64,000 bases of DNA from contig CP074381.1 of NCBI GenBank assembly GCA_022041995.1, positions 558,001 through 622,000 on the forward strand, written 5' to 3'. The notes below the pieces were generated by a model that was not told where the DNA came from, did no database searches, and saw only the letters and a list, made by a program, of their open reading frames with translations. The position numbers and the translations under genes were made by a program. This DNA is from Cupriavidus necator. Lineage in GTDB: Bacteria; Pseudomonadota; Gammaproteobacteria; Burkholderiales; Burkholderiaceae. Below, piece after piece: positions 18,821 to 21,972 of this stretch. How positions within the stretch are numbered: the first letter of the stretch is position 1; every line of letters starts with the position of its first letter.

Positions 18821-19746
18821 TCAGGCGAACGCCTGCAGCGCCCCCTTCATCTTCTTCATGGCCGCGGCTTCAATCTGGCGGATGCGCTCGGCCGAGACGC
18901 CGAACTCGTCAGCCAGCTCATGCAGCGTGGCGCCGCCCGAGCCGTCGTCCTCGACGTGCAGCCAGCGCGCCTCGATGATGCGGCGGCTGCGTTCGTCCAG
19001 CTTGGCCAGCGCTTCTTCCAGGCCTTCGACCTGCATGCGGTCGTGGCGCTTGGCCTCCAGCACGCGGGTGGGCTCGTTGTGGTTGTCCGCCAGGTAGGCG
19101 ATGGGGCGAATTCCTCTTCGCCGTCGTCGATCTGGCCTTCCAGCGCCAGGTCGCCGCCCGACAGGCGGGTTTCCATCTCCATCACTTCTTCGGGCTTGAC
19201 GTTCAGCTCGCGCGCCACGGCCTCGATCTGCTCCGGCGTGAACGTGTGCGCGCCCTGCTTGTGGCTGCGCAGGTTGAAGAACAGCTTGCGCTGGGCCTTG
19301 GTGGTGGCCACCTTGACCATGCGCCAGTTCTTCAGCACGTATTCGTGGATCTCGGCCTTGATCCAGTGCATCGCGTACGACACCAGGCGCACGCCTTGTT
19401 CGGGGTCGAAGCGCTTCACGGCCTTCATCAGGCCGATATTGCCTTCCTGGATCAGGTCGGCGTGCGGCAGGCCGTAGCCCAGGTACTGGCGGGCGATCGA
19501 CACCACCAGGCGCAGGTGGGACATCACCATCTGGCGGGCCGCATCAACGGAATCGTGGTCGCGGAGCTCGCGCGCCAGGCGCTGCTCTTCCTCCGCGGTC
19601 AGCAGCGGAATCCGGTGGACAGCCTGGATATAGCTGTCGAGGTTGCCAACGGTGGCCGGGAAGGTCAGCGCAAAGCTGCCCGTGCTCCGGGGTGCCGTTG
19701 GCAGACGGTTATTCAGGGTTTGGTCGGCAGACAAGACTGCGTTCAC
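18821..19746 (-). CDS. rpoH: RNA polymerase sigma factor RpoH (sigma-32), apparent frameshift
   Basis: Heat-shock sigma factor. Region 2 appears as [40 protein letters not shown] and [20 protein letters not shown]. The RpoH-specific box is QRKLFFNLR. Region 4.2 ends the protein with [20 protein letters not shown]. The frame breaks at 19103-19106 (GGGG on plus, needs five), which restores [20 protein letters not shown]. Corrected length is about 308 residues. A perfect CIRCE operator about 80 bp upstream indicates HrcA control. rpoH is a core regulator, so the break is most likely an assembly error. Confidence 0.94.
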
Positions 19747-19823
19747 TCAATGGCTCCTTTCGCATCCGGCGGTTCGGTTGCCGGGGTGCCGCGCCGTTTG
19801 GGGCGGTGGCACTGCAACACATA

Positions 19824-19850
19824 TTAGCACTCAGGCCGGGTGAGTGCTAA
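19824..19850 (-). promoter_or_regulatory. CIRCE element (HrcA operator) upstream of rpoH
   Basis: TTAGCACTC-N9-GAGTGCTAA matches the CIRCE consensus at every base. Read on the minus strand, the arms overlap a possible promoter: TTAGCA as a poor -35 and TAATAT at the inner edge as -10, 18 bp apart. Bound HrcA would then block rpoH transcription. The site itself is certain; the promoter overlap is inference. Confidence 0.95.
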
Positions 19851-20086
19851 TTGGAGCCCCGATGGCCGTGATAGTTCCTCTCGATTGCTCTCGCAGATAG
19901 CATAGCTACTTACCACCTTGAGCGGCGGGAAAGATACCCACGGTTCGGCGCACTGGATATTAGAGCGGTGCGGGGCATTGGGGTTCTGTCCGCTGCTGCA
20001 ATGATTTGTTGCATCAGCGGCTACACTCGACCAAGCTGCGGCGCGCTGGCATGCTTGCGAGCCTCTCTCATTCCACCGGAGGAGTT
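19851..20086. other. intergenic region between the CIRCE element and the pirin gene
   Basis: The divergent rpoH-pirin gap is 340 bp in total. Besides CIRCE, I see only an A/T-richer stretch (about 19870-19920) that could hold promoters, with no clear -35/-10 pair, and a strong ribosome site (CCGGAGGAG) at 20077-20085 before the pirin start. No small gene is supported. Confidence 0.5.
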
Positions 20087-20961
20087 ATGTCTGCTATCGA
20101 ACACTTGCTCAAGCCGCATGTGCGCGACCTTGGCGATTTTACCGTGCGCCGGTTGTTGCCCGCCGCCGCGACCCAGACCGTCGGGCCGTTCATCTTCTTC
20201 GACCATATGGGGCCGGTGCAGCTGCCGCCGGGTGGCGGCGCTGATGTGCGTCCGCACCCACATATCGGGCTGGCCACCGTCACCTACCTGTTCGAAGGCG
20301 AGATCATCCACCGCGACAGCCTGGGCAGCGACCAGGCGATCCGCCCGGGCGACGTCAACTGGATGACCGCCGGGCGTGGCATCGTGCACTCGGAACGCTC
20401 GCCCGAGCATGTGCGCCCCGCCGGTGCCCGCCTGCATGGCATCCAGACCTGGGTGGCACTGCCGCAGGAGCATGAGGGTGCCGAGCCGTCGTTCTTCCAT
20501 CATCCCGCCGCCACGCTGCCGCGGATCGAGCGGCCGGGCGTGCGCATGGTGGTGATTGCGGGCGATGCCTTTGGCCAGATCTCTCCGGTCAAGGTCTTCA
20601 GCCGCACCCTGTATGTGGCGATCGAGCTGGATGCGGGCGCGAGCGTGGAGATCCCGGCCGATCATGCCGAGCGTGGCATCTATCCGGTGGATGGCGCGGT
20701 GGCGCTCGACGGCGAGCCGCTGCCGGCCGAGCACATGGTGGTGCTCACGCCGGGCCAGCCCGCGACGCTGACGGCCACGGCGCCGTCGCGCGTGATGCTG
20801 CTGGGCGGCGACCCGACCGACGGGCACCGCTTTATCTACTGGAATTTCGTTGCCAGCAGCAAGGTGGCGATCGAAGCCGCCGCCCAGCGCTGGGAGGACG
20901 ATCAGTTCCCGCACGTGCCGGGCGAGACCGAGCGCATCCCGCTGCCCCGCGCAAGGCCTGA
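20087..20961 (+). CDS. pirin family protein, apparent frameshift at the C-terminus
   Basis: Bicupin of the pirin family; some members have quercetin 2,3-dioxygenase activity, others are regulatory. The metal-binding residues lie in DVRPHPHIGLATVTYLFEGE (HxH) and in IVHSERSP. The C-terminal cupin shows GDPTDGHRFIYWNFVASSK. The start at 20087 has an excellent RBS. As read, the frame runs on to 21295 into the convergent ybiB gene. Adding one C to the run 20945-20948 gives ERIPLPPRKA and a stop at 20959-20961, 18 bp short of ybiB, so I annotate the corrected end. The physiological role is unknown. Confidence 0.88.
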
Positions 20962-20979
20962 CAGCGGTCCCGGGGCTGC

Positions 20980-21972
20980 TCAGACCGGACTGGCCCAGAT
21001 CACGCGGGTGCCTTGCCGCAGGCATTCGCGGATGGCCTCGACCTGGATCGCAAGCGGTGCCGGCACCGGCACCGCGCCGTCCAGCACGCGCCGGATCCAG
21101 GCCACGGTCTGGCCGGCGTCGCTGCCGGGCGGCAGTTCAGGTACTTCGGCCAGCGAACCCACGGCCGGATCGACCAGCGTCTGCTGGTGGCCTTCATGCA
21201 GCCAGTCGATGCGGCTGGTGCGGCGCGCATCGGCCACCACTTCGCCCTCGGTGCCGCGTGCCAGCAGCACGTTGGCGGGCTCATGCGAGAAGTAGTCGGT
21301 CAGCGTCTCGCGGTATTCAGGGTGGGTGTAGCTGTACAGCCGCAACCCTTCAGCGGGCGAATGCTCGCCCACTGGCTGCAGCATCTTGGCCACCGTATGC
21401 GCCGAATTGCGCAGGCCGATCACGGTGCGCCGCTCCAGCAGCTGCGACAGCCCGGGCGACAGCACATCCACGGGCAGCACCGCCAGCGGCCCGAGGCCGC
21501 TGCCCTCGCGCAGCCGTGCCGAGGCCTCGTCGGTAGTCGCGCACAAGGGCACGCCCAGCGCCTCGAACAGCGTCATGCTGGTCACGCGGCCATTGAACAG
21601 CCGCGTGCCGTGCACCAGCACGGGAACATCTTCGCGCGCCAGCAGCAGCGCCAGCAGCGGCACCAGGTTGGGTTGCTTGCGCGCGCCGTTGTAGCTGGGG
21701 ATTACCACCACCTGCCGGTCAGGCGGCGCCGGCAGTGGCTGGCAGTGCGCATGGGCGGCTTCCAGCATGCCTGCCAGTTCGTGCGGGGCCTCGCCCTTGA
21801 TGCGATAGGCCATCAGGATGGCGCCAAGCTCCAGGTCGGAGACGCGCCCGGCCAGCATGGCGCCGAACAAGGCCTGCGCGTCTTCGCGGGGCAGCGCCCG
21901 CGCGCCGTTGACGCCGCGGCCAATCTCCTTGATATAGCGGGCAGCAGGGAAGGACGTGGCTGGCGTGGTCAT
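20980..21972 (-). CDS. ybiB: YbiB/TrpD2-family DNA-binding protein (anthranilate phosphoribosyltransferase-like fold)
   Basis: Resembles anthranilate phosphoribosyltransferase in fold (AAARYIKEIGRG-type start, GRVSDLELGAILMAYRIKGE, VPVLVHGTRLFNGRVTS) but belongs to the YbiB/TrpD2 branch, whose E. coli member binds nucleic acid and is under LexA control. The catalytic GTGGD-type loop of TrpD is replaced by IPSYNGARKQPNLVPLL, which argues against TrpD activity. The start at 21972 (MTTPATSFPAAR) is preferred to 22032. About 330 residues. No LexA box was recognised upstream. Confidence 0.85.
   Translation of the reverse strand: MTTPATSFPAARYIKEIGRGVNGARALPREDAQALFGAMLAGRVSDLELGAILMAYRIKGEAPHELAGMLEAAHAHCQPLPAPPDRQVVVIPSYNGARKQPNLVPLLALLLAREDVPVLVHGTRLFNGRVTSMTLFEALGVPLCATTDEASARLREGSGLGPLAVLPVDVLSPGLSQLLERRTVIGLRNSAHTVAKMLQPVGEHSPAEGLRLYSYTHPEYRETLTDYFSHEPANVLLARGTEGEVVADARRTSRIDWLHEGHQQTLVDPAVGSLAEVPELPPGSDAGQTVAWIRRVLDGAVPVPAPLAIQVEAIRECLRQGTRVIWASPV

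Follow-up and report, generated by a model that had tools for sequence, protein, structure and literature searches.

The heat-shock sigma factor gene rpoH of this genome lies behind a perfect CIRCE palindrome, and we consider it highly probable that this palindrome is an HrcA operator which represses rpoH, set over a weak sigma-70-type promoter and, in the genus, a sigma-E-type promoter as well, within a feedback loop governed by the titration of GroE. HrcA/CIRCE and sigma-32 are usually shown as parallel or alternative heat-shock circuits, with Escherichia coli as the model for sigma-32. Here the two appear to be joined. What we observe directly is the site itself, an intact hrcA, the conservation of the site and its co-occurrence with hrcA, promoter-like bases that fall outside the palindrome, and a further site at groES.

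Throughout, we use the window to denote the whole stretch of DNA that was analysed, 64 kb in length. The sequence TTAGCACTC-N9-GAGTGCTAA, at positions 19824-19850, agrees with the CIRCE consensus at 18 of 18 arm bases, that is, with 0 mismatches, and it is the sole match at three or fewer mismatches within the window. When the window is shuffled so as to preserve its dinucleotides, a CIRCE appears in none of 100 trials. The gene rpoH is read from the minus strand, and 77 bp separate the operator from its start, a GTG at 19746 preceded by the Shine-Dalgarno motif AAAGGAG. The preliminary description of this DNA had claimed a perfect CIRCE before rpoH, and the claim is borne out by the arm match, by the shuffles, and by the downstream gene, which profile search identifies as sigma-32. 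The elements to which we refer below are the following.

19824-19850, minus strand: CIRCE operator, a palindrome of 27 bp; 18/18 arm positions, kept across the genus.
19845-19850, minus strand: candidate sigma-70 -35 box TTAGCA, within the left arm of CIRCE; from the sequence and its relatives.
19821-19826, minus strand: candidate sigma-70 -10 box TAATAT, made of the three last right-arm bases and three bases outside, with TGC before it (extended -10).
19872-19878, minus strand: candidate sigma-E (ECF)-type -35 element GGAACTA; 39/39 genus sequences, own included.
19851-19855, minus strand: candidate sigma-E (ECF)-type -10 element TCCAA, abutting the left arm of CIRCE, 16 nt past GGAACTA; TCNAA in 39/39.
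19754-19760, minus strand: Shine-Dalgarno AAAGGAG of rpoH; the motif is in our own sequence and in all of 30 genus loci.
18821-19746, minus strand: rpoH (sigma-32), GTG start; frames 18856-19746 and 18821-19063, with a frameshift near 19106.
20087-20990, plus strand: pirin-family gene, the divergent neighbour (PF02678, PF05726); domain part, the frame being open past 20990.

Just 3' of the candidate sigma-70 -10 box, on the minus strand, we also note a block GTTGCARTGC (19809-19818), most of whose columns are at least 90% conserved in the 39 genus sequences.

In the profile search, the first rpoH frame matches the sigma-32 model NCBIfam PRK06596 over residues 28-215 (E 1.2e-95), and the second frame matches the same model with E 4.8e-24. 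Neither frame is a full-length sigma-32 by itself; the two together span the family model, and the gene is frameshifted in the assembly, with one base missing near 19106 relative to 6 of 6 aligned relatives. This is the single sigma-32 gene above the cut-off in the genome. Since a one-base frameshift splits the sole rpoH, it might be supposed that rpoH is a pseudogene in this strain and its operator a vestige. We find this improbable: the operator has been preserved, as have the Shine-Dalgarno sequence and the two promoter-like elements; each of the 38 other genus genomes with a match has rpoH as a single open frame; and the closest of the six aligned relatives is 97.7% identical over the stretch. 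A sequencing or assembly error seems the likelier source of the frameshift.

The palindrome is symmetric and lies in an intergenic region shared with the divergent pirin-family gene (Pfam PF02678, E 2.3e-36; PF05726, E 8.5e-23), 236 bp before the pirin start, so that it could serve this neighbour and not rpoH. The distance to the rpoH start is only 77 bp, however; in other families the site precedes the start of the rpoH profile match by a median of 61 bp (range 23-205, n=139); and both the T of the -10 box and the sigma-E-like boxes, discussed below, point towards rpoH. We give hardly any credence, therefore, to an operator that belongs to the pirin gene. The pirin frame itself (20087-21295) stays open well past the pirin domains and overlaps an ORF on the opposite strand, possibly as a result of another assembly indel.

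An operator for HrcA presupposes an HrcA. Presence of the gene had been set beforehand as a test, and the case of a genome with no hrcA is excluded: there is one intact copy, 344 aa in length, which scores 306.5 bits against the TIGR00331 equivalog cut-off of 197.2, and whose flanking ORFs are presumably nadK and hemH. Judged by its gene content and size, the genome (9.6 Mb, ten contigs) is presumably that of a Cupriavidus-like member of the Burkholderiaceae. As a whole it contains three CIRCE-like sites at three or fewer mismatches, namely those at rpoH (0 mismatches), at groES (0) and on another contig (1). A reversed control pattern yields one match per strand genome-wide at that same threshold, and three-mismatch matches at this scale mean little; none of the three sites is that weak. 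The perfect site before groES (L003) places groESL under CIRCE in the same genome; we take a CTTGAAA before the groES promoter to be a sigma-32-like motif.

The third CIRCE, with 17 of 18 arm bases, is found at L004:1501-1527 (G000:C3:30844-30870), near a promoter that we judged by eye to be sigma-70-like. It lies 59 bp before a broken ORF of 49 aa (L004:1587-1733), whose start resembles a CBASS phospholipase effector (PADLOC PDLC00757, E 8e-6; NCBIfam CBASS_lipase, E 0.003, far under its cut-off) and which is followed by a KfrA-type plasmid gene. A Pfam search with this ORF gave no match, and neither did plasmid DNA and protein searches with the site and the ORF. Control of an anti-phage effector by a GroE-sensing repressor would, if true, be novel, but the case is a single broken instance. 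Near the third CIRCE, a gene of 778 aa (L363:4187-6520, minus strand) weakly matches a candidate defence model of PADLOC (PDC-M28C, E 7e-5).

Within the genus, 39 of the 40 genomes searched, our own included, have rpoH; the remaining genome (G012) is 54% complete and stands outside the counts. When the upstream regions are read, the rpoH CIRCE is present in all 38 of the other rpoH-bearing genomes, in 34 of them perfectly and in 4 with one mismatch. At one mismatch or fewer, these 38 genomes contain 78 CIRCE sites in total: exactly two in 36 genomes, and three in 2. Among the matches listed, which cover 30 of the 78 loci, 19 are at rpoH and 11 at groES, while about 29 second or third sites fall outside the loci read, two extra ones apart. 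Judging from these sites, the HrcA regulon of the genus is probably rpoH plus groESL. As for the extra sites, the one in G030 (L362) has no heat-shock context that we could see, and the one in G019 (L361) lies near a contig end, behind what by eye is a groES-like promoter.

The order to which the genus belongs allows a comparison of genomes with and without the repressor. Our sample consists of 110 genomes from 50 families, of which 107 besides our own have rpoH, in 108 copies, and all of the upstream regions were read; two genomes without an rpoH match (G068 and G083) are out of the counts. Where hrcA is intact, 97 of 97 rpoH copies have a CIRCE at four or fewer mismatches (95 at three or fewer), and most of these sites are close to the consensus: 40 are perfect, 35 have one mismatch, 19 two, 1 three and 2 four. 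By contrast, the site occurs in 0 of the 11 genomes without an intact hrcA, ten of which have no hrcA match and one of which has a degenerate copy (G122, a 154-aa frame with one stop). The association gives a Fisher p of 2.9e-15, with genomes treated as independent and shared ancestry ignored. Since genomes are not independent, joint losses within families are a cleaner argument than such p-values. Two families provide them: in each, one member has neither hrcA nor the site (G091 in family f4, G072 in family f33), whereas its sampled siblings have both. The genome G072 has a decayed rpoH site at 5 mismatches, which is the best among the 11 order genomes without intact hrcA.

The same pattern, with exceptions, extends to the class outside the order, where we read 62 rpoH copies using a site cut-off of three or fewer mismatches; five genomes without an rpoH match were excluded, and one with its hrcA match truncated at the end of a contig (G200) was counted as hrcA-positive. 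The site is found at 40 of 45 rpoH copies with hrcA versus 2 of 17 without (Fisher p 1.8e-8, genomes again taken as independent). On one side of the exceptions, five rpoH copies in four genomes have hrcA but no site (G158, G169, G174 with two copies, G203); on the other, G161 and G206 have a site with no hrcA detected. These seven are either true counter-examples or incomplete assemblies. Mononucleotide shuffles of the upstream regions produce a site at three or fewer mismatches in 0 of 1700 trials, and at four in 1 of 1700. The site is mostly lost, then, where the repressor is lost, both in the order (97/97 versus 0/11) and in the class (40/45 versus 2/17). Since site and repressor mostly co-occur, the rpoH CIRCE is very likely a working HrcA operator. 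Together with the intact hrcA, this tracking across order and class supports what the preliminary description had proposed, namely that HrcA controls rpoH.

A separate set of named relatives, the best 80 of at least 589, stands outside the hrcA tables. In this set, 55 of the 80 rpoH loci have the site at three or fewer mismatches, and the relatives with it include Trinickia, Pandoraea, Variovorax, Nitrosomonas communis, Dyella flagellata and Pseudoalteromonas luteoviolacea. Among the same best 80 of at least 589, we did not see an rpoH CIRCE in the records of Vibrio penaeicida, Haemophilus parainfluenzae, Pantoea (two), Photorhabdus, Halomonas and Pseudomonas (two). In Xanthomonas pisi (5 mismatches) and a Lysobacteraceae record (2), both arms of the rpoH palindrome are changed symmetrically, to GCAGTC...GACTGC, and the palindrome of Luteimonas has a related form with 3 mismatches (records L261, L295, L259). 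Such symmetric changes may perhaps reflect a shifted specificity of HrcA.

It is important to ask how the operator is arranged with respect to the promoter of rpoH. The likely promoter named earlier, TTAGCA-18-TAATAT, is present on the minus strand, and the T of its -10 box is conserved. Its agreement with the sigma-70 consensus is limited to 8 of 12 positions, however, and scanning both strands from 19700 to 20100 for that consensus returns nothing at 9/12. Because our own promoter is this weak, the claim of a promoter rests on comparison. For this purpose we counted bases at 147 rpoH sites (97 from the order, 42 from the class and 8 from the genus, without the other 30 genus loci and our own site), and we used groES as a control. 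The groES control starts from 30 loci (the best matches, one per genome), of which 29 were read, one being too short upstream; 21 of the 29 have a site at four or fewer mismatches and were used for their flanks, and the other 8 comprise three without hrcA and five with it.

The sixth base of the -10 box, a T, lies outside the palindrome. It is nonetheless kept at 144 of the 147 rpoH sites (96/97 in the order, 40/42 in the class, 8/8 in the genus) versus 1 of the 21 groES sites. The -10 hexamer at rpoH sites is mostly TAANNT or TAGNNT, with the arm's TGC directly before it in the manner of an extended -10, and the first hexamer is TTAGCA in 85 of the 147, TTGGCA in 34, CTAGCA in 12 and CTGGCA in 11. 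Numbered along the site, the promoter bases T25, A26 and the outside T30 are retained in 146, 147 and 144 of the 147, respectively. The arms themselves vary asymmetrically: T25 is found in 146/147 versus 99/147 for its mirror base A3, whose change to G is the commonest in the left arm (46/147) and shifts TTAGCA towards TTGACA. All 21 of the 21 groES sites have a TATAAT-like box (one mismatch or fewer) at the left arm or immediately before it; of the rpoH sites, 10 of 146 do. These patterns support the view that the rpoH palindrome may double as a promoter: the -35 would lie within the left arm and the -10 at the right one, with a spacer of 18. HrcA bound to the operator would then cover this sigma-70-type promoter almost entirely. 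The earlier suggestion of direct occlusion is likewise supported, by the -10 T that is kept outside the palindrome at rpoH (144/147) and not at groES (1/21).

Directly upstream of the operator lies a second candidate promoter. The consensus of sigma-E (ECF) promoters resembles GGAACTT-N16-TCTRA, and all 39 of the 39 genus sequences contain GGAACTA-N16-TCNAA, always with the 16-nt spacer, as against 0.75 expected in mononucleotide shuffles. The pair is separated from the left arm of CIRCE by 0 or 1 bp, and many of the bases between its boxes vary. A stricter pattern, which we used first, is found in 37/39 genus, 2/97 order and 2/42 class sequences; the looser score was adopted after the genus sequences had been seen, and we limit the sigma-E claim to the genus. 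With the looser score, the order is at background (3/96 versus 1.7 in shuffles), and the class (4/42 versus 0.65) and the named set (5/55 versus 1.25, from the best 80 of at least 589) are somewhat above it. Trinickia and Pandoraea have close forms of the pair a few bases further upstream. By its position, the start site of this candidate would lie inside CIRCE, and bound HrcA should block both candidate promoters in the genus.

Given that the spacing of GGAACTA-N16-TCNAA is invariant in 39 of 39 genus sequences and that the sigma-70 candidate matches at 8/12, one could hold that the sigma-E-type promoter alone is real, that HrcA acts as a roadblock at its start, and that the sigma-70 boxes are an accident of the palindrome. 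We think this unlikely. The sigma-E-like pair is rare outside the genus, whereas the outside T is kept in 96/97 order and 40/42 class sites, and the arms of CIRCE vary asymmetrically, as a promoter would require. A different possibility is that CIRCE works in the leader of the rpoH mRNA, as a stem-loop that affects stability or translation, and not as a DNA operator. A transcript from the sigma-E-type promoter would indeed carry most of the palindrome, but one from the sigma-70-type promoter would exclude it; conservation of the palindrome tracks the presence of hrcA; and the leader 3' of the palindrome folds like its shuffles (z -0.57), with the Shine-Dalgarno sequence unpaired in the centroid structure. 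A role in the leader is, accordingly, very improbable. An RNA thermometer as the main control of rpoH was rejected, too, given this same z and a Shine-Dalgarno sequence that is not masked in the centroid.

We return to the preferred reading, that of a DNA operator fused to the promoter region of rpoH. HrcA is known from other bacteria as the repressor that acts at CIRCE. In other species, according to PMC6032397, GroE keeps HrcA active and misfolded protein titrates GroE, and HrcA sites lie near or over the -35 and -10 elements. For the organism at hand, we infer binding, repression, promoter use and the loop as follows. In unstressed cells, GroE would keep HrcA active, and HrcA on the palindrome would cover the rpoH promoter region: it would block the sigma-70-type promoter, whose boxes are largely made of CIRCE arms, and in the genus it would also cover the start region of the sigma-E-type promoter, since the -10 of the latter lies directly against the left arm. 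Misfolded protein would draw off GroE, HrcA would be released, and sigma-32 would be made. HrcA would leave the groESL operator as well, so that groESL would rise both directly and by way of sigma-32. Newly made GroE would then re-activate HrcA and restore repression, which would close the loop. One published observation sits uneasily with this scheme: according to PMC3224663, nitrogen starvation of Xylella fastidiosa raises hrcA four-fold and rpoH two-fold later, which is not as simple repression of rpoH predicts. For the family of Xylella, which is poorly covered here, our records (L259, L261, L295) show an rpoH site that is divergent or weak.

If HrcA binding is shown, sigma-32 synthesis in these bacteria would be coupled transcriptionally to the supply of GroE; and if the sigma-E-type promoter is real, HrcA would also gate the input of envelope stress to rpoH. 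Such a circuit would bear on the heat tolerance of industrial and environmental members of the order and on the reading of their transcriptomes, and the fused promoter-operator pinpoints the exact bases for testing. More tentatively, and at somewhat less than even chances, we suggest that in the Gammaproteobacteria (as GTDB defines them, with the beta group included) the heat-shock wiring ancestrally had HrcA placed above sigma-32, that the arrangement of E. coli, where HrcA does not act on rpoH, derives from it by repeated joint loss of hrcA and operator, and that the genus operator also gates a sigma-E-type promoter. Envelope stress could then raise sigma-32 only when GroE is titrated as well, as in an AND gate with two stress sensors.

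How does this arrangement compare with known systems? Permina and Gelfand are said, by the title of their work, to have treated the HrcA/CIRCE and sigma-32 regulons of beta-, gamma- and epsilon-proteobacteria (doi 10.1159/000077248), and theirs may be the comparative genomics to which the preliminary description alluded. The preliminary description had allowed that the idea is not new, and rightly so: CIRCE before rpoH has been in print since 2004. Table 8 of Rodionov et al. (2004, PMC545781) lists a perfect CIRCE before rpoH of Geobacter sulfurreducens, at -51, and groESL is a member of the same regulon. The present genome is like it in both respects; Geobacter sulfurreducens differs in having a CIRCE before hrcA-grpE-dnaKJ too (PMC545781), whereas the genus here has essentially two sites per genome. 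Within the excerpts of CC-licensed PMC literature that our search covered, PMC545781 is the only source to state a CIRCE upstream of rpoH, and neither the fusion of operator and promoter nor the sigma-E pairing nor a table of co-loss came up there, although subscription papers could hold them. Thus the CIRCE-rpoH link is not itself new, and it is the breadth of the link and the layout of the promoter that are now clearer. In the class, most of the sampled lineages with hrcA also have a CIRCE over the promoter region of rpoH, and where either the site or the repressor is missing, the other mostly is too.

The classical groESL operators, that of our own genome included, share with the rpoH site both the palindrome and the repressor. 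They differ from it in layout: the groES palindrome has the TATAAT-like box at its left arm or immediately before it, whereas the rpoH palindrome itself reaches from the candidate -35 to the candidate -10. Escherichia coli is not known to have a CIRCE at rpoH, and it does not figure among the control genomes with an hrcA match. If the element described here is real, E. coli and the genus would have in common a sigma-E promoter before rpoH.
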